Notes under the pieces: model-generated
Told to the model about the DNA's origin: nothing
Seen by the model: only the letters and a program-made list of their open reading frames with translations
The model's database searches: none
Source: Verrucomicrobiaceae bacterium
GTDB lineage: Bacteria > Verrucomicrobiota > Verrucomicrobiia > Verrucomicrobiales > Verrucomicrobiaceae
Direction of reading: 5' to 3'
DNA length: 64,000 nucleotides
Assembly (NCBI GenBank): GCA_027490195.1
Contig: JAIXYN010000059.1
Coordinates: forward strand, 62,001-126,000
Shown: in pieces, positions 3,854 to 13,272 of the stretch
How the letters are laid out: each line of letters opens with the position of its first letter
Position numbering within the stretch: position 1 is the first letter of the stretch
Translations under genes and position numbers: made by a program

Positions 3854-5368
3854 ATGAAATGCTGCCTGCTGCCCTGCGTCCTCCTGCTGTCCTGCACACC
3901 TGAGAATGAAGCCAGACAGACTGCTTCCCAGCCAGCAGCCATCGATCCGGTCCAGCAAGCCACAGCACGCGTGGATACGGCACTGATGCATGACTACGAA
4001 CTGGCGCTCACCAACATGAGGAAGGCGAATTTTGCACCTCTCCTGCTCATGGCTGACGACACGACCTTCCTGCGGCGTGCGTGCATTGACCTTGCTGGAA
4101 GGCTGCCACGACCGGATGAGGTGCGCGCTTTCGTTTCGGACCCAACACCCGAGAAACGCGCCAAACTCACCGATTCCCTCACCCGCGAGCCGGGAGGAGC
4201 TGAGGTGCGCTTCCGCATGCTGGCTGAAGCTTTTCGCGTCACTGACGAGGATCCGGAAACGATATCGTGGCTTCGGCAGGCCGCTGCCGATGACCGGCCG
4301 TATGCCGAAATCATCTCGGGCATGATCGGTACAGGCAGGGTGAGCCGCCGCGATGGTGGCGATGCCATGCGCACAGGTGTAGAGACGGCTTACAGCGTGC
4401 TGGGACTAGACACCCGCTGCGCCATGTGCCACGACCACCCATTCAGTGAACGTACAGAAATGGAGTGCTATGCATTCGCCGCCTGCTTTGCGGGAAAAGG
4501 TGAGGTGCGATTGCCTCATGACTACAAATACCCGAATGGGAAACCCGGCGACGTGGTGCAGCCCGCCCTGCTCCGCATCGACAGAGCCTGGAGGCCGTTC
4601 ATTCAGGATAATGAAGACAAACTCACGCAGGTGGCCAAATGGCTCACGAACGAGGAGCCCACCAAACGCTTCGCGCTGGTCGCAGTGATGCGGGTGTGGA
4701 GCGGGCTGTTCGGCATGCCGGAGCAGATCATCAACAACACCGTAGGTGGAGTGGATGACGAACCAAGCTGGAACGAAACTCATGGGAACTGTTTCACCAG
4801 GTCTCAACGACGAGCCGCCACTTGGATCGACATGAACATCAACAGGCCGGGAGATTTTTCGCAGGCTCCCAAGGTGCTCATCGAGGAGTTCCTGCGCTGC
4901 GGCTGTCGCATTGGCGAATTTCAGCGCCTTCTAGCACGTACGAATGCCTACCAGCGCTCAGGCATCAATTACAATACGGATTGGCAGGACTGCCAACTCG
5001 CGCCTGCACCGCACATTCGCAGACTTCCCACTGAGGTCATCTGGAAAGCATTGACTGATGAAACTGATATCCAACTGCCGCAGATCCCGCAACCCGGGCA
5101 CCCGCTGCGCATGCTGGGCCGTGGCACGCGAGAGTGGACGGATGAAAGTCGGACACCGCTCTCGCATGAACTGGTGCGCTTCATGATGAATGACAAGCTC
5201 ATTGATCAAGCAACTGCGAAGGCGGGAGATGCCGAGGGGATGTTTCTGGCACTGCTGGGGCGTGAGCCCACCGAAAACGAACGGGCAGCGATCCTGCGCA
5301 CAGCAGCGACGGACGGAGATGTGGCGTGGGCGCTGCTGAACACGAAGGAATTCATGTTCAGGCCGTGA
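3854..5368 (+). CDS. DUF1549/DUF1553 domain lipoprotein
   Basis: The product has 504 residues and starts with a short lipoprotein signal; MKCCLLPCVLLLSC ends in a lipobox cysteine near residue 14. DUF1549 occupies roughly residues 50-240 and contains FLRRACIDLAGRLP and the CxxCH motif CAMCHDHPF. The DUF1553-like part follows, with RTPLSHELVRFMMND and the typical end ALLNTKEFMFRP. Such proteins are abundant in Planctomycetes and Verrucomicrobia and are often paired with DUF1501 proteins, but none is adjacent here. CxxCH could bind heme c. The stop TGA abuts the stop of the convergent peptidase gene (TGATCA). Confidence 0.85.
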   Translation: MKCCLLPCVLLLSCTPENEARQTASQPAAIDPVQQATARVDTALMHDYELALTNMRKANFAPLLLMADDTTFLRRACIDLAGRLPRPDEVRAFVSDPTPEKRAKLTDSLTREPGGAEVRFRMLAEAFRVTDEDPETISWLRQAAADDRPYAEIISGMIGTGRVSRRDGGDAMRTGVETAYSVLGLDTRCAMCHDHPFSERTEMECYAFAACFAGKGEVRLPHDYKYPNGKPGDVVQPALLRIDRAWRPFIQDNEDKLTQVAKWLTNEEPTKRFALVAVMRVWSGLFGMPEQIINNTVGGVDDEPSWNETHGNCFTRSQRRAATWIDMNINRPGDFSQAPKVLIEEFLRCGCRIGEFQRLLARTNAYQRSGINYNTDWQDCQLAPAPHIRRLPTEVIWKALTDETDIQLPQIPQPGHPLRMLGRGTREWTDESRTPLSHELVRFMMNDKLIDQATAKAGDAEGMFLALLGREPTENERAAILRTAATDGDVAWALLNTKEFMFRP

Positions 5369-8290
5369 TCAATCGCGCGAGCCGGGCATGATCTTCATCT
5401 CAACAGCTTTGCCTTCGCGCTGGACGGTGATGGTGGTTTCCTTGCCGATCTTGAGATCGCCCATGACGTAGGTGTAGTCGTAGATGTTGGTGATGTCCTT
5501 GCCGCCGAGTTTGATGATGATGTCGCCGGCTTTGACGCCTGCTTTTGCGGCTGGGCCGATGGGGGAGACGCCGCTGAGTTTGACGCCTTTGATGTCGCCC
5601 TGGGCGTAGTCGGGGATGGTGCCGAGGTAGGCGCGGAGGCCGGTGCGTACGCCCTGGTTTTTCGGAGCCTCCATGGCGATGTACTCGGGGGCGGGATCGG
5701 TGGTGGCGATGCCGCGGGCGATGAGGCCCATGAGCTTGGCGGTCTTGGCGGCATTGACGTAGTCGATCTTGTCTGCGGTATCGCTGGGCATGTGGTAGTC
5801 GGCGTGGGAGCCGGTGAAGGCGTTCAGGGTGGGGATGCCCTTCAAATAAAACGCGGTGCTGTCGGTGGGCAGGTGGGCGTCATTTTGCGTGGTGATGGGC
5901 AGACCGATGGGGGCGTTGCGCTTTTCGATTTCCTTCGCCCACAGCGAGCTGCTGCCGAGGCCCTGCAGCACGAGCGTCTTCTGAAAGCGGCCGATCATGT
6001 CCATGTTCAGGCAGGCGGCGAACATGCCGGTGAGTTTTGCGTTGGTGTCGCCCTTGATCATTTTAGCGTAGGCTTCGACGAAGTGATTGCTGCCAAGCAG
6101 GCCGAGTTCTTCACCGCTCCAGGCGGCGAAGATGATGTCGCGCTTGAGGGTGAGCTTGCCCTGCTTTTTCAAGTCGGCCAGCCACTGGGCGATTTCGAGC
6201 ACACCGGAAGTGCCAGAGGCGTTGTCATCGGCGCCGTGATGGATCTTGTTCACTTCATCGCCTTTGGCACGTGAGTTTGAGCCACCGCTGCTGCCGAGGT
6301 GATCCACATGTGCGCAGACGATGAGCGGGGCGACATGGGGATCGGGCTTGTCGCTGTAAGGCAGCACGCCGAGGACGTTGCGGCCTTTTTTCTTCTCCTG
6401 CTGGATGACGATGTTTGCGGCGAGGGTGAGTCCTTTGCAGTCGATGCCGCCCATGAGGTCACCGTTGTCGAGCTTGTCCTGAAGTTCCTTGAGGTTCTTG
6501 CCGGCGCTGGCGAGCAACTTGTCGCCCACGGCATCGGTGATGCTGATGGCGGCGATGCCGCTGGTGGCGAGGGAGGCATCAAATGAAAGCGGGGCAAGTT
6601 GCTGCACGACTTTGCTGTTCGGACCGCTGACAACGATCAAACCACGCGCGCCTTTCTGGCGTGCGGTGAGCGCTTTGTAGCGCAGGCTGGCGTAACGGCT
6701 GAGATCGTTGCGGCGGTCCTGCGTGATGCCTTCGGGAAGGTAGCGGAAGACGAGCACCCATTTGTCCTTCACATCGAGGTGAGCGTAGCTGCTGTAGGTT
6801 TCGATCTTCTTGCCGTCAGTGCCGGTGGCTTCGTCGGGTGTTTCGATACCGTAACCTGCGAAGACGATGCCGGCGGCTTTGACTTCGCCGTTTTGAGAGA
6901 AGGACAGAGGTTTCCAGTCCACATCGACCTTCCATTCGCTGCCCTTGAGCTTCAGTTCGTTCCCTTCACCGAGAGCGACACCGGCGGTAAAGTCGAAGTT
7001 GTCGAAGTAGGTGTCCTCATCGCCGAAGGGTGAGAGGCCGATTTTTTGGAAGACGTCCGCAACATATTGGGTAGCGAGCTTTTCACCTTCGGTGCCGGTG
7101 AGGCGACCGCCGAGGGCATCGCTGGCGAGGTAGGTGACCTGCTGCTGCATGTCTTCCGGGCGGATCTCTGCGGCGGTGGCGGAGAAGTCGGGCTCTGGAG
7201 TCTTCGACACAGCCACATTCGGATCGGTCTTGAGGCCGAGTGCCGTGAGCGCGTGATCGTGATTCCAGTCTGCGAGGTAAATCTGCGAAGCTCCCCCTGC
7301 CCCGCGGCCGCTGGTCCAGGAGAGTTTTTTGCCATCCGGCGAGAAGACCGGCAGGCCATCGAAACCGTCCGTGGTGGTCACGCGTACCGGGTCGTGTTTG
7401 CCTGCGGCATCGACGATGTAGAGTTCGAAATTGGCGAAGCCGTTGATATTGGTGGTGAAGATGAGGTACTCGCCGCTGGGATGGAAATAGGGCGCCCAAC
7501 TCATCGCGCTGAGCTTGGTGACGGGCTTTTGGTCACTGCCGTCGGCGTTCATGGTCCAGACTTCGGCCACATCGCCCTTAGGCGTGAAGCGGCGCCAGCA
7601 GATGCGTTTGCCATCAGCACTGAAGAAGGGGCCGCCATCGTAGCCGGGGGCTTCGGTGAGGCGCTTCACGTTTGAGCCGTCGGCATCGGCGGTGTAGATC
7701 TCCATGAAGTACTGCTTGTCGATCTTGAGACGCTCCTCATCCTCCTCGCTGAGCTTCGTTTCGTAGGCCTGACGATTGCTGGCGAAGACCATCTTTTTAC
7801 CATCGGGCGAATAGCCACCCTCGGCATCGTAACCGCGGGTTTGGGTGAGGTTTTTGAGCGACTTGTCCACGAGGGAGTATTCCCAGATGTCGTAGTGTTC
7901 ATCGTAGTCCCAGGAGTAGCGGCGCACCTTGGCATTTTTTCGCTCCTCGTACTCAGCGGCCTGCAGCTTTTTCGAGTCGGGGTCGGTGTGGGTGGAGGCA
8001 AAGAGAACGCGTTTTCCGTCGGGATGGATCCAAGCGCAGGTCGTCTTGCCCATGCCGGGGGAGATGCGCTCCTGATCGCCCGTTTCCAGGTCCATCAGGT
8101 AGATTTGGTAAAATGGGTTTCCCTCTTCGCGCTCGGACTGGAAGATCATCTTCTTGCCATAGGCAGAGAAGTAGCCCTCCCCCGAGCGTTTGCCCTCGAA
8201 GGTGAGCTGGCGGGGAGCCGTGATGAAATCCGCCTCGGTCTGGGCGAAGACGGTGGTGGTAGCCAGGGCTAGAAAGAAAAGGGGGCGCAT
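5369..8290 (-). CDS. Secreted multidomain peptidase: TolB-like propeller, PA-type insert, M28 domain, PDZ
   Basis: I chose ATG 8290 because a signal peptide follows at once (MRPLFFLALATTTVFAQ); this gives 973 residues. Residues about 30-400 carry WD40/TolB-like repeats (SPDGKKMVFAS, FSADGKRI, HPSGEYLIFTT). A PA-like segment starts near 475 (GIVFAGYGIETPD). The M28 aminopeptidase domain keeps its di-zinc ligands: AHVDHLG near 660, HGADDNASG near 683, WSGEELGLLGS near 725, NMDMIGR near 764 and ADYHMPSDT near 831. A PDZ domain follows at about 895-965 (GPAAKAGVKAGDIIIKLGG). It is probably a periplasmic or surface exopeptidase. The open frame upstream of 8290 adds no recognisable sequence. Confidence 0.9.
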   Translation of the reverse strand: MRPLFFLALATTTVFAQTEADFITAPRQLTFEGKRSGEGYFSAYGKKMIFQSEREEGNPFYQIYLMDLETGDQERISPGMGKTTCAWIHPDGKRVLFASTHTDPDSKKLQAAEYEERKNAKVRRYSWDYDEHYDIWEYSLVDKSLKNLTQTRGYDAEGGYSPDGKKMVFASNRQAYETKLSEEDEERLKIDKQYFMEIYTADADGSNVKRLTEAPGYDGGPFFSADGKRICWRRFTPKGDVAEVWTMNADGSDQKPVTKLSAMSWAPYFHPSGEYLIFTTNINGFANFELYIVDAAGKHDPVRVTTTDGFDGLPVFSPDGKKLSWTSGRGAGGASQIYLADWNHDHALTALGLKTDPNVAVSKTPEPDFSATAAEIRPEDMQQQVTYLASDALGGRLTGTEGEKLATQYVADVFQKIGLSPFGDEDTYFDNFDFTAGVALGEGNELKLKGSEWKVDVDWKPLSFSQNGEVKAAGIVFAGYGIETPDEATGTDGKKIETYSSYAHLDVKDKWVLVFRYLPEGITQDRRNDLSRYASLRYKALTARQKGARGLIVVSGPNSKVVQQLAPLSFDASLATSGIAAISITDAVGDKLLASAGKNLKELQDKLDNGDLMGGIDCKGLTLAANIVIQQEKKKGRNVLGVLPYSDKPDPHVAPLIVCAHVDHLGSSGGSNSRAKGDEVNKIHHGADDNASGTSGVLEIAQWLADLKKQGKLTLKRDIIFAAWSGEELGLLGSNHFVEAYAKMIKGDTNAKLTGMFAACLNMDMIGRFQKTLVLQGLGSSSLWAKEIEKRNAPIGLPITTQNDAHLPTDSTAFYLKGIPTLNAFTGSHADYHMPSDTADKIDYVNAAKTAKLMGLIARGIATTDPAPEYIAMEAPKNQGVRTGLRAYLGTIPDYAQGDIKGVKLSGVSPIGPAAKAGVKAGDIIIKLGGKDITNIYDYTYVMGDLKIGKETTITVQREGKAVEMKIMPGSRD

Positions 8291-8391
8291 GATGAAGTGA
8301 ATACGGCGGCAACTGGTGAATCTAGACATCTGAACAACAGTCACGAGATTCAAGCTTGAAAAAAAAGCTTCTTTCAGGCCATGCTGCAAAG

Positions 8392-9612
8392 ATGACGACG
8401 CGAACAAGCGCTTCCACAACAAAGGTATTATTACTCTTAACGTTTTCACAGATCTGCTTTCAGGTGCATGCCTCCGCACAGTCGCCCGAAGCCTTTCTGC
8501 AAACTAAAGTCACTGCAACCTTGGATGTGGGCGAGAAATTTCAGAGCGGGTTAAGCCTGTTGTGGAGTCCTTCAGGACAGGCCGCGTGGGATAAAATGAG
8601 AGAGTTCCATGGGGTTAAAACCATAGAGCTTGAGCCGCCGACTCACATCGCAGACGTGCTCAACCAGTTCAAATGGGATGCAGCAAAGACGCTGCCTGAT
8701 GGAACCGTCGTCTATGGAGGTGAGGACTCCGAAGCTCGACGCGTAGAAATTCGCGAGATGCTCAGGAAACGAGTAGGTGCCAATGCGGCGGCGATGATCG
8801 GCCCCTATCTGCCGCCTGGAAGAGTGGATGCAAACACACTTCGCCTGGGTTCAGCCATTTTTGTGAGCTGCATCTCTCATTCGCCGCGTTTTCCCGTTGG
8901 CTTTGCACTGAAAAAGAGTGTCTTTTCCTATTCCAATGGCCAAGGAGTACCTGTGCAGGGATTCGGCAGTGAAGGACCGTACGCCGCAAACTTGGGCGAT
9001 GCACTCAATATCATTGCCGACGATTTTAAAGGAGCCGTCATTCTCAAGCTTCCATTTTTCGAAGAAGCAAAATCCAAATCTAGCTTTCTTACGCTGGCCA
9101 AAATTCCCCATATGACGTGTCTTGAAGATGGCATTCAACGCGTACGTCAGGCCCTCAAATCACCCCTCCCAGCCGACCAAGCCATCAAGCAAAATGACAA
9201 ATGGTGGAGATACCACAATCAGCTCAGTGCGGTGGACCGATTTTGGATGCCCAAACTCAAAACCACTCTCTCGTGTGACTATGGCGAACTGATTGGCAAA
9301 ACCTATCTGCGCCAGCCTGGCGGGCTTGGCATTACCTACTGGAAAATTCGTGAGGCCCAGCAATTGCTGAGTTTCCGGCTGGATGAACAAGGCTCCATGA
9401 CGCAGGCCGTTTTTAAAATTGTGCCGGATTTTCTTTCATCAGGGGGTGGCGCGGAAAAGCCGTCGGATACGCCAAAGATCGAAAGCCTGCCATTCCTGCC
9501 CAGAGTGTTTGCGTTCGACGGGCCCTTTCTTGCCGCCTTATGGATGAAGGGAGCCGAGTGGCCCTATCTTGCCTGCTGGGTGGACAGCGAAGAGGTGCTG
9601 CTTAAAAAGTGA
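8392..9612 (+). CDS. Secreted protein with serpin-like organisation
   Basis: The product has 406 residues with a signal peptide (residues about 1-28, hydrophobic core VLLLLTFSQICFQV). The order of segments resembles a serpin: LSLLWSPSGQAAWDKM (55-69), RLGSAIFVS (151-159), an F-strand region with GVPVQGFGSEGPY ending in FKGAVILKLP (212-221), WMPKLKTTLSCDYGELI (285-301), the hinge-like LDEQGSMTQAVFKIV (330-344), a variable loop, and FAFDGPFLAALW (373-384). Serpins trap proteases by inserting a reactive loop. The hinge is not canonical (EEGTEAAAAT in inhibitors), so inhibition is doubtful. Similarity is read by eye; otherwise this is a hypothetical protein. It is divergent from the M28 peptidase gene. 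Confidence 0.55.
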   Translation: MTTRTSASTTKVLLLLTFSQICFQVHASAQSPEAFLQTKVTATLDVGEKFQSGLSLLWSPSGQAAWDKMREFHGVKTIELEPPTHIADVLNQFKWDAAKTLPDGTVVYGGEDSEARRVEIREMLRKRVGANAAAMIGPYLPPGRVDANTLRLGSAIFVSCISHSPRFPVGFALKKSVFSYSNGQGVPVQGFGSEGPYAANLGDALNIIADDFKGAVILKLPFFEEAKSKSSFLTLAKIPHMTCLEDGIQRVRQALKSPLPADQAIKQNDKWWRYHNQLSAVDRFWMPKLKTTLSCDYGELIGKTYLRQPGGLGITYWKIREAQQLLSFRLDEQGSMTQAVFKIVPDFLSSGGGAEKPSDTPKIESLPFLPRVFAFDGPFLAALWMKGAEWPYLACWVDSEEVLLKK

Positions 9613-9687
9613 ACAGCGGGTTTTAAACTTTGCGCATGCATCCGGCGTCCAGCCGTGTTTGATCCGCCTCGACCCTTTTTTCCGACC

Positions 9688-12600
9688 ATGCGCTTACTCC
9701 CCCTGCTCGCTCTATTTCCCATGCTGGTTTCCGCCGCCGAACCGGTATCTTTGTTCGATGGCAAGACGCTAAAAGGCTGGGACGGCGAAACGACGAAAGT
9801 CTGGCGGGTGGAGGACGGAGTAATCGTGGGCGGGTCGCTGGAGGGGAATCCGCAGAATGAATTCCTGACGGCAAAGAAAGTGTATCGGAATTTCATCCTG
9901 CGGCTGGAATACAAACTGGAAGGCACGGAGGGCTTTGTGAACGGTGGGGTGCAGTTCCGCAGCGTGCGCATCCCGCAGCCGCCAAATGAGATGAGCGGCT
10001 ATCAGGCGGACATCGGCGCGGGTTACTCGGGCTGCTTGTATGATGAATCGCGGCGGAAGAAGATGCTGCTGCAGCCGGCGAAGGAACTGATCGAGAAAGC
10101 CGAGAAGCCGGGCGAGTGGAACACGTACGAGATTCGGGCCGAGGAGCAGCGCATTCAGTTGTTTGTTAACAAGGTGCGCACGGTGGACTACACCGAACGT
10201 GAGCCGGGCATCGACCTGAAGGGACTCATCGCGCTGCAGATCCACGGCAAGTGCAAGGCGCAGATCTCTTTCCGCAACATCACCATCGAGGCTTTACCGG
10301 ACGCGATGGTTCCTGAAGAGAAGGATGTGCTGAATCGCTTTGGCAATCCTGGCGCTGCGGTGGCGAAACATGAGGCATTCAAGGATGGCAAATTTGTGCT
10401 GGAGCAGGACGAAGTGATTGTGATGGCGGGCCAGGAGAATCTGGTGCGCGAGCAGAAGGTGGGAGAATTTGAAGCGGTGTTCGGCACTGCGTATGCGGCC
10501 AAGCAGCCGCGTTTTCGCTCGATGGCCTGGGAAGGTGACACGGTGTATGAGCAGTGGCGGGATTTGAATTTCGGCGACTGGAAGGCGCAGCTCGACGCAG
10601 CGGGTGCGAGCATTGTGATCGCGCATTTTGGCCAGACGGAATCGTTTGATGGCGTGAAGCGACTGGCGGAGTTCAAGTCGGCCTATCATCGGCTGCTGGA
10701 TCAGTTTACCGGGCAAACACCGCGTCTGGTGCTGGTGTCGCCGATGCCGTTTGAAAAGCCTACGGCATCGCATGCGCCGGACCTGACGCAGCGGAATGCG
10801 GATGTGAAAGCTTATGCGGATGCGGTGCGCGAGGTGGCGAAGCAGCGTGGTGCGGTCTTCGTTGATCTGTTCACGCCTTTTTCGGCCCGAGCAGGGGAGC
10901 GACTCACCGATGATGGCCTGCATCTGAACGCGCTGGGATTGCGCGTGGCGGCGCGGGAGATCGCACAGCAACTTGGAGCCTCGTCGAGCGATGCGGATGA
11001 TCTCAGCGCGGTGAAGGCGGCGATTGTGGAGAAGAACCGTCTGTGGTTCGACTGCTGGCGTCCGGCGAACTGGTCGTTTGTTTATGGTGACCGTGTGACG
11101 CAGATGTTTGGCAAGCCCGCCAAGGATGCGCCGTCACTGCGGGAGAGCTTTGAAGAACGGAAGCCGCTCGTCGCAAAGCTGGACGCCCGCATTCATGCGC
11201 TGGCTAAGGGCGAGAAGGTGCCGGACGAGCCGAAGCCGGAATCACCCGTGGTCACGGAGACGGTGCTCACGCCGGAGCAGCAGATGGCGGCCTTCACGGT
11301 GGCGGAGGGGTATGAGATGAACCTTTTTGCCTCCGAGGCGGAAGGCGTGGCGAAGCCGACGCAGTTCTCCTGGGATGAACGCGGCCGCCTTTATGTGGCG
11401 TGCTCACCGACGTACCCGCAGACACGGCCGGGCATCAAGCCTTCGGATTTCATCCTCGTGCTGGAAGACACGGATGGGGATGGCAAGGCGGACAAATCCA
11501 CGCGCTTTGCGGAAGGATTGACCATGGTGCAGGGCGTGGAGGTGGGCGCGGGTGGTGTGTATGTCTGCGACTTTGATCAGATCGTGCATCTCAAGGACAC
11601 GAACGGTGACGGCAAGGCGGATGAGAAGACGGTGCTGTTCTCGGGGTTCGGCATCGGCGACACGCATCAACTGGCGAACTCGATCTGCCACGGTCCTGAT
11701 GGCGCGCTATGGTTCACTCAGGGGCTGCATGCATTTTCTCGCGTGGAAACGGCGTGGGGACTGGCGCGGCTGGACAAAGCGGGTGTGTGGAAGTTGAACG
11801 CGCGCACTCAGCAAATGGCTGGCTACTTCAACGGCGGAAAAGCGGGGCACAACTGCTGGGGCGTGGCGTTTGATGACTACAACCAAGTCTTCCACAAGAG
11901 CGGCGACCGTCCGGCAGGCTACTACAGCGTGCCTGGGCTCGTGGCGCTGGCCGACCCTGATGAATACCACCCGACCGGGGCCTTGTTTGACTCGAATCCC
12001 AAGACGAACAGCCTGGAGTTCATCGGCACGAAGGCGCTGCCAGATGACATTCAGGGCTGCGCGCTGATCGGCGGTTATTTTGGCAATGTGGTGGAGCTTC
12101 ACCGCCTCGAGGATGATGGCTCTGGCTTCAAGAGCACACAGCTGCCGAAGCTGGTGAAATCGAGCGACACTTCGTTTCGTCCGGTGGATGTGAGCATCGG
12201 GCCAGATGGCGCGATGTATCTTTGCGACTGGTTCAATCCGGTGATCGGCCACTACCAAGCCAGCTATGCTGACCCACGCCGCGACCGCTCGCATGGCCGC
12301 ATCTGGCGCATCACCGCCAAGGGCCGCGCACCCGTCAAACAGCCGAAGCTGGCGGAGATGAAACCGGCGGAACTGCTCGAACAACTGAAGTCACCGGAGC
12401 GCTGGACGCGGTATCAGGCGAAGCGAATGCTGTTTGATGCACCGACGGCGGAAGTCCTGAAAGCGGCGGATGATTTCATCGCAAAGAATGATGACGAGCA
12501 TGTGCTGATGGAGGTCTGCGGCGTGTTTGAATCGCATGAATCGCCGCGTGAGGAGTTGGTGAAGCGCCTGCTCAAGGCGAAGGATGCTCGTGTGCGTGCC

Positions 12601-13272
12601 TATGGAGCGAGAGCTACGGAGTCGCTGGAGCTTTTGACCCAGGCCGTGCGTGACGAAAATCCGCGCGTGCGGCTAGAGGCGGTGGTGGCCTGCGCGCATG
12701 TGGCCAAGCCTGAAGCAGTGGAAGTGGCGGTGCAGGCGCTGGAAAAGCCAACGGACAGATTCATCGACTACGCACTCAAGCAGGTGGTGAAGAGCCTCAA
12801 GCCGCAGTACGTGCCGGTGATGGCGAAGCTCAGCTTTGGCGGCAATGCCAAGCAGGCCGAGTATGTGAAGAAGATCGCGAGCGCGGCAGCTGTCGTCGAT
12901 CATCCGGGCAAGGTGGTGTACGACGCGCTGTGCCTGAACTGCCACCAACCCGAGGGCAAGGGCCTGCCTGGCATCTATCCTTCCATCGCAGCCAGCGACT
13001 GGGCGGCGGGAGATCCGGAGCGCCTGATCAAAATGCTGACCCACGGTCTTAGCGGCCCGATTCTTGTGAATGGAGTGGAATTCAAGCAACTCGCCCCCCT
13101 GCCAATGCCCCCCATGGGCCTGAATGACGAGCAAGTGGCCGATGTGCTGACCTACGTGCGGGCCAATTTCAGCAACAAGGCACCTGCCGTGACGCCTGTG
13201 CAGGTGAAAACCGTGCGCGAGGCCACAAAGAACCGCACAACTTTGTGGACGGCTGAAGATTTGGCGAAATAA
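9688..13272 (+). CDS. DUF1080 - SGNH-like - PVC-type membrane-bound dehydrogenase - HEAT - cytochrome c fusion
   Basis: ATG 9688 precedes a signal peptide (MRLLPLLALFPMLVSA); the product has 1194 residues. Residues about 20-205 are a DUF1080 (3-keto-disaccharide hydrolase-like) lectin fold with VSLFDGKTLKGWDG. Residues about 210-435 resemble an SGNH/GDSL hydrolase and end in DDGLHLNALG. Residues about 530-880 form the PVC dehydrogenase propeller (AEGYEMNLFASE, LEDTDGDGKADK, GPDGALWFTQG). HEAT-like helices lie at 885-1065. A cytochrome c domain has CLNCH at about 1082 and Met ligand candidates in PLPMPPMG near 1137. It probably oxidises or cleaves sugars in the periplasm and passes electrons to the heme. 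The substrate is unknown. Confidence 0.9.
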   Translation: MRLLPLLALFPMLVSAAEPVSLFDGKTLKGWDGETTKVWRVEDGVIVGGSLEGNPQNEFLTAKKVYRNFILRLEYKLEGTEGFVNGGVQFRSVRIPQPPNEMSGYQADIGAGYSGCLYDESRRKKMLLQPAKELIEKAEKPGEWNTYEIRAEEQRIQLFVNKVRTVDYTEREPGIDLKGLIALQIHGKCKAQISFRNITIEALPDAMVPEEKDVLNRFGNPGAAVAKHEAFKDGKFVLEQDEVIVMAGQENLVREQKVGEFEAVFGTAYAAKQPRFRSMAWEGDTVYEQWRDLNFGDWKAQLDAAGASIVIAHFGQTESFDGVKRLAEFKSAYHRLLDQFTGQTPRLVLVSPMPFEKPTASHAPDLTQRNADVKAYADAVREVAKQRGAVFVDLFTPFSARAGERLTDDGLHLNALGLRVAAREIAQQLGASSSDADDLSAVKAAIVEKNRLWFDCWRPANWSFVYGDRVTQMFGKPAKDAPSLRESFEERKPLVAKLDARIHALAKGEKVPDEPKPESPVVTETVLTPEQQMAAFTVAEGYEMNLFASEAEGVAKPTQFSWDERGRLYVACSPTYPQTRPGIKPSDFILVLEDTDGDGKADKSTRFAEGLTMVQGVEVGAGGVYVCDFDQIVHLKDTNGDGKADEKTVLFSGFGIGDTHQLANSICHGPDGALWFTQGLHAFSRVETAWGLARLDKAGVWKLNARTQQMAGYFNGGKAGHNCWGVAFDDYNQVFHKSGDRPAGYYSVPGLVALADPDEYHPTGALFDSNPKTNSLEFIGTKALPDDIQGCALIGGYFGNVVELHRLEDDGSGFKSTQLPKLVKSSDTSFRPVDVSIGPDGAMYLCDWFNPVIGHYQASYADPRRDRSHGRIWRITAKGRAPVKQPKLAEMKPAELLEQLKSPERWTRYQAKRMLFDAPTAEVLKAADDFIAKNDDEHVLMEVCGVFESHESPREELVKRLLKAKDARVRAYGARATESLELLTQAVRDENPRVRLEAVVACAHVAKPEAVEVAVQALEKPTDRFIDYALKQVVKSLKPQYVPVMAKLSFGGNAKQAEYVKKIASAAAVVDHPGKVVYDALCLNCHQPEGKGLPGIYPSIAASDWAAGDPERLIKMLTHGLSGPILVNGVEFKQLAPLPMPPMGLNDEQVADVLTYVRANFSNKAPAVTPVQVKTVREATKNRTTLWTAEDLAK

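Follow-up and report, generated by a model that had tools for sequence, protein, structure and literature searches.

Beside the gene for an M28 peptidase lies a divergently transcribed gene whose product was originally predicted to be a secreted, serpin-like protein, and the question is whether this protein belongs to the serpin superfamily at all and, if it does, whether it could still act as a protease inhibitor. Within the window, which is the whole 64,000-nucleotide stretch of DNA analysed, the gene is an ATG-to-stop open reading frame of 406 residues that carries all five of the sequence blocks quoted in that prediction. The gene, its putative export signal and the two genes that flank it are as follows.

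8392-9612, forward strand: serpin-like, putatively secreted protein P0001, 406 residues (from the reading frame, its relatives and the match of the family profile to serpins)
8392-8478, forward strand: putative signal peptide, residues 1-29 (hydrophobic from residue 12; cleavage between A-S-A and Q placed by eye)
5369-8290, reverse strand: M28 peptidase with PD40 repeats and a PDZ domain (domain scan; start at 8290 chosen by eye for a signal peptide)
9655-13272, forward strand: multi-domain reading frame with 3-keto-disaccharide hydrolase, GDSL, DUF7133, HEAT and cytochrome c domains (domain scan)

This is a real coding gene under purifying selection, since it has a relative of 84% identity across all 406 residues in another genome of the same genus (G022), its closest, and the dN/dS between the two is about 0.10 (0.096 over the full length, 0.066 within residues 30-406; dS is about 1). 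Judged from its N-terminus, P0001 is probably exported. There is an in-frame TTG 12 codons upstream of the ATG. The gene is present as a single copy in its own genome, where a profile scan found no match to PF00079, and its GC content is 0.52, against 0.59 and 0.60 in its two neighbours. The short gap between the divergent genes holds two AAGCTT palindromes with starts 13 bases apart (window 8352-8370). The reading frame at 9655-13272 is a long fusion, the GDSL part of which is a GDSL lipase.

The family and its match to serpins

With P0001 as the query, relatives are found in 4 of 56 genomes, its own included, and a contig search gives one (JAEUHK010000051.1); three scans of viral contigs gave none. 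A four-row profile finds the serpin-like gene in 6 of the 48 genomes of the genus and, across the order, matches 54 of 386 genomes at E up to 0.01; its weakest matches there may be fortuitous. At E up to 0.001 the distant-clade profile (A6) has matches in 15 genomes of the class sample (286 genomes) and in 15 of the phylum sample (288 genomes), and it finds the window gene at 1.1e-40 in both; at least four of its matches (L079, L089, L090, and L091) are genuine serpins, being full serpins by Pfam.

The family as counted here has 36 rows, of which 22 form the PFG clade and nine the window clade. It leaves out the partial relatives L004/L008, L022, L025, L028, L029, and L074, as well as L070, L077, L080, L086, the second copies in G104 and G170, and many of the weaker matches of the order-level search. 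Besides A6, profiles were built from 26 family rows (A2), from the nine rows of the window clade (A5), and from 34 rows (A8, additionally without L087 and L088). The set of 54 serpins used for comparison consists of the best-ranking PF00079 matches together with L079 and L089-L091, without those whose matched stretch is below 280 residues and without L094, a copy of L091. Hydrophobic N-termini are seen in 33 of the 36 family members, a count that is partly circular because a hydrophobic beginning was among the criteria by which the starts of most relatives were picked.

Several relatives have features of their own. Serpin-like copies lie side by side or close together at L058:3211-4383 and 4408-5727 (reverse strand) and at L128:6030-7100 and 9385-10482 (forward strand). 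By eye, the relative at L077:814-2685 (reverse) has a TPR-like tail, and those at L087:1492-3012 (reverse) and L088:181-1737 (forward) have hydrophobic, membrane-like N-terminal extensions.

Taken singly, P0001 matches no Pfam and no NCBIfam family at E up to 1, and its three matches among PDB sequences are at chance level (best E 0.35). Nor does its own nine-row clade find a serpin in the PDB; the hhalign comparison of this clade with serpins is marginal, scoring 27.7 where shuffles reach 24.0. Were these the only results, the resemblance might be put down to chance or to convergent short motifs. That reading is already contradicted by the profile results and appears extremely improbable. In hhalign, the 26-row profile aligns to 14 genuine serpins with a probability of 97.1 and a score of 87.4 (100 column shuffles reach no more than 28.0), and the distant-clade profile scores 71.0 where shuffles reach 30.4. 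All 36 family rows against 18 genuine serpins give a probability of 98.4 and a score of 118 over residues 115-401, although the shuffle controls belong to the smaller comparisons.

Searches of PDB sequences agree. For the 26-row profile the match to alaserpin has an E of 2.3e-4, and serpins make up 16 of the 19 matches at E up to 10; for the 34-row profile the best match is again alaserpin, at 4e-6, and the best 60 of the 79 matches at E up to 1 are all serpins by name. The distant clade alone gives five matches at E up to 0.1, all of them PAI-1 (best 0.017). Of the 26 family members scanned individually, 15 match PF00079 (E up to 10; best 8.4e-5) and four other Pfam families have one matching member each; L054 passes the curated cut-off of the Pfam serpin family (29.1 against 27 bits). 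Landmark residues also fall in register, as set out below.

The family shares common ancestry with serpins over roughly residues 115-401. Profile searches find serpins with the wider family profiles, but not with P0001 alone or with its nine-row clade, and it is through the former that a place for P0001 as a relative of the serpin superfamily is supported. The original suggestion of a non-inhibitory serpin relative is borne out to this extent, by way of the family and of L054, with "probably non-inhibitory" as the appropriate wording. A two-row AlphaFold model of P0001 has a mean pLDDT of 31.4 and is meaningless for the fold.

A tree of the C-terminal region, computed on 245 of its 372 alignment columns, divides the 36 members from the 54 serpins at a single branch with 100/100 support. 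It is rooted at the midpoint, so it shows the division between the two groups but does not prove which of them is older. Of the serpins, L079 and L091 branch closest to this division. These two (L079:1453-2502 and L091:1438-2634, both reverse strand) are full-length serpins whose loop has PFG and a proline-rich stretch, and they are possible intermediates; they are the only 2 of the 54 serpins with PFG in the loop.

Serpin register and the N-terminal half

The alignment of the family profile to serpins places the following parts of P0001, with landmarks in alpha-1-antitrypsin numbering.

8479-8847, forward strand: N-terminal half, residues 30-152; no serpin profile match, and shorter than its serpin counterpart if the WSP block is equivalent
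8848-8925, forward strand: equivalent of serpin s3A-s4C, residues 153-178; N186 is S159, W194 is F167, F198 is F171, and F208 is F178 (hhalign register)
9244-9258, forward strand: WMPKL, residues 285-289, equivalent of serpin s6A (P289-K290; profile register)
9361-9393, forward strand: end of the s5A equivalent, residues 324-334; Q324 stands for H334, with E332 and G334 as in the serpin hinge
9394-9519, forward strand: hinge and reactive-centre-loop equivalent, residues 335-376; without an alanine run, and longer than in the 54 serpins compared
9511-9585, forward strand: s4B/s5B equivalent, residues 374-398; a DxPF motif and the family's own LW...PY motif

Four of the quoted blocks, FKGAVILKLP, WMPKLKTTL, DEQGSMTQAVFKIV, and FDGPFLAALW, fall in the serpin register of this alignment; the fifth, WSPSGQAAWDKM, does not share in that support. 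Across the 36 rows the serpin landmarks F208, P289, G344, and F370 are kept in all, P369 in 34, E342 in 32, and F198 in 30. Others are lost. At the breach position W194 there is F in 34 members and Y in the remaining two, where all 54 serpins have W, and the shutter residue N186 is kept in none, being replaced by G, S, A, T, V, or C. H334 is likewise kept in none (Q in 34, A in one, and E in one), but Q is also found here in 10 of the 54 serpins, so this change says little. The segment from s6A to s5A is shorter in the family, with a median of 34 residues against 46 in serpins. The C-terminal serpin signature (PROSITE PS00284) occurs in 23 of the 36 members and 47 of the 54 serpins, and in one of the 248 other reading frames of the neighbourhoods (those of L141 not counted); P0001 itself is one residue short of this pattern.

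The N-terminal half is another matter. Residues 40-152 compared with serpins score 14.4 in hhalign, within the range of 100 column-shuffled controls (maximum 17.2), though weak profiles can miss a diverged half. Because the score lies within the shuffles, the WSP block is unproven, and the proposal that WSPSGQAAWDKM corresponds to the serpin SPxS block is not supported.

One explanation would be that only the C-terminal part derives from a serpin and that the N-terminal half is unrelated or has been replaced, making the protein a new kind of chimera whose fold borrows part of the serpin. As well as the missing match, this could account for the distance from the WSP block to the breach position, which, if WSP is equivalent, is 97-110 residues (median 99) in the family against 115-208 (median 142) in serpins. 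The positions that would be S53 and P54, however, hold S in 23 and P in 27 of the 36 members, and the profiles may simply have overlooked a half that has diverged. The serpin core interleaves both halves of the chain, which makes such a swap hard to picture. A chimera is unlikely.

Hinge, loop and neighbouring genes

The stretch P17-P9, ExGTEAAAA, is described as a motif common to known inhibitory serpins (PMC8233489). The observation that the hinge lacks a run of small residues in P0001 holds for the whole family: P12-P9 are all small in 44 of the 54 serpins but in 0 of the 36 members, where P12 is mostly V. The features of inhibition, namely the small hinge residues, the breach Trp, and the shutter Asn, are absent in the family, an absence that speaks for a non-inhibitory protein.

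Neither clade has the hypervariable loop of inhibitory serpins. Mean pairwise identity in the loop tip and the core, respectively, is 0.197 and 0.318 in serpins, 0.414 and 0.355 in the PFG clade, and 0.384 and 0.414 in the window clade. When the whole family is taken together, identity is slightly lower in the loop tip (0.246) than in the core (0.280). The dN/dS between P0001 and its G022 relative rises from 0.06 across residues 40-334 to 0.27 in the loop (residues 335-376).

It could still be supposed that these proteins inhibit proteases, with an unusual hinge that lets the bait loop insert in spite of its larger residues, or by a route that needs no insertion. The hinge G is kept in every member and E342 in most, in the two closest relatives the loop evolves more quickly than the core, and genuine serpins are common in the sampled order, with 68 of 189 genomes over the cut-off (one of these, G120, through the family member L054). 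Set against this are the hinge, in which no member has an all-small P12-P9, the missing shutter Asn and breach Trp, and a loop tip that is not hypervariable in either clade; continued inhibition is thus improbable.

Lacking the spring-trap parts that inhibition needs, the protein probably has another job. The reading preferred here, at a probability of about 0.6, is that the P0001 family is an exported, deeply diverged branch of the serpin superfamily that gave up, or never had, the suicide-inhibitor mechanism. On this reading the fold would be a stable, rather than metastable, serpin-like core with no way of trapping a protease by inserting a cleaved loop, and the protein would bind a periplasmic or extracellular partner through a conserved surface, which may be the long loop. 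The loop dN/dS in the closest pair, together with the family-wide difference between tip and core, makes the idea of a binding loop weaker for the window clade. The partner would probably not be the neighbouring M28 peptidase.

The peptidase gene is present and divergent, as originally described, with 101 bp between the two starts if M28 begins at 8290, but the link hinted at between the two does not hold up. Of the 48 genus genomes, 46 have an M28 match at E up to 1e-100 (one of these in part), and six have the serpin-like gene. Among the eight other loci with the serpin-like gene (4 to 19 kb; two are the same G028 region), the one in G022, syntenic over the whole block, is alone in including M28. 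Of the 46 M28 loci, 20 were examined, the window included, and in two of these (the window and G022) the serpin-like gene stands between M28 and the DUF7133 gene. DUF7133 follows at 101-111 bp from M28, without the serpin-like gene, in nine, and lies at 710 and 960 bp in two; seven have no DUF7133 match in the flank, some flanks being short. The comparison shows a stable peptidase gene next to which the serpin-like gene has been either acquired or, in other genomes, lost.

That the serpin-like protein regulates or inhibits the adjacent peptidase would fit the close divergent arrangement and its repetition in G022. It is nonetheless very improbable, given the difference in distribution and the nine loci in which the next gene stands 101-111 bp from M28 without it. 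The two genes are on different contigs in the draft genomes G028, G061, and G066, and in G034, which has the serpin-like gene, M28 gives no match at E 1e-100. M28 enzymes are, moreover, metallopeptidases, which are not the usual targets of serpins. The M28 neighbour looks incidental, and a partnership is rejected, the pairing not being conserved across either the genus genomes or the M28 loci.

A different neighbour recurs among the relatives. In 27 neighbourhoods (24 kb of the window and 26 loci of 3.5-19 kb, at least two of them short, e.g. L126), a secretin-like gene is the only recurrent neighbour found in more than three; it adjoins the family gene in six, and in five of these six the two reading frames overlap. 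The secretin-like proteins are about 260-280 residues long, with a diverged Secretin domain; of seven scanned, five match Pfam Secretin, one of them over the cut-off. The genes are:

L128:5245-6030, 7783-8583, and 8562-9380, forward strand: secretin-like genes
L132:7144-7992, forward strand: secretin-like gene
L133:4866-5660, forward strand: secretin-like gene
L134:6583-7425, reverse strand: secretin-like gene
L136:4918-5712, forward strand: secretin-like gene
L137:4882-5709, forward strand: secretin-like gene

A bolder conjecture, put forward tentatively and as an unlikely one, is that this branch of serpins in Verrucomicrobia and their relatives was born relaxed. The hinge would then be a permanent strand of sheet A, part of the N-terminal helices would be gone, and the long loop, containing Pro and Gly, would dock an exported partner, in some relatives perhaps the adjacent secretin-like protein with which the reading frames overlap.

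Comparison with known systems

The existence of a branch with serpin core motifs but no inhibitory parts would suggest repurposing of the fold in bacteria, as in animals, and the structure of such a protein would show how far a serpin can be altered or pared down. The serpin assignment also gives a testable name to a family that lies largely below the Pfam cut-off. For many prokaryotes the role of serpins is described as enigmatic (PMC8233489). The terms Verrucomicrobia and Planctomycet do not occur in the main text of that paper, and among the listed titles and opening parts of abstracts of open-licence literature on bacterial, divergent, and non-inhibitory serpins there is no description of the P0001 family.

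With the serpin superfamily (PF00079) the family shares the C-terminal register from s3A to s5B, with F198, F208, P289, E342, G344, P369, and F370 each kept in 30 to 36 of 36 members, as well as a similar length and a signal-peptide-like start. It differs from these serpins in that P12-P9 are never all small, N186 and W194 are absent, H334 is mostly Q, the s6A-s5A segment is shorter, and the N-terminal part is unmatched; P0001 itself has no Pfam match. Most members of the PFG clade resemble L079 and L091 in the PFG and proline-rich stretch of the loop, but those two, unlike the family, are full serpins by Pfam (189.9 and 188.3 bits) and have the breach Trp.

The Group U serpins of Streptomyces deviate in the breach and shutter and may be non-inhibitory, yet they still find other serpins by BLAST and many keep the consensus hinge, as reported in PMC8233489. 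P0001, in contrast, finds no serpin by hmmscan or phmmer, and its family is without the consensus hinge described there.

Among animals, the hormone-binding globulins and HSP47 are given as non-inhibitory serpins, and the functions of such serpins as typically exploiting the S-to-R change (PMC8233489). An S-to-R change is unlikely in the P0001 family. As in the hormone-binding globulins and HSP47 as presented there, a serpin ancestry would have been put to a use other than protease inhibition, although the P0001 family is bacterial, far more diverged, and without a known ligand. The family is best seen as a diverged and probably non-inhibitory branch of the serpin superfamily.
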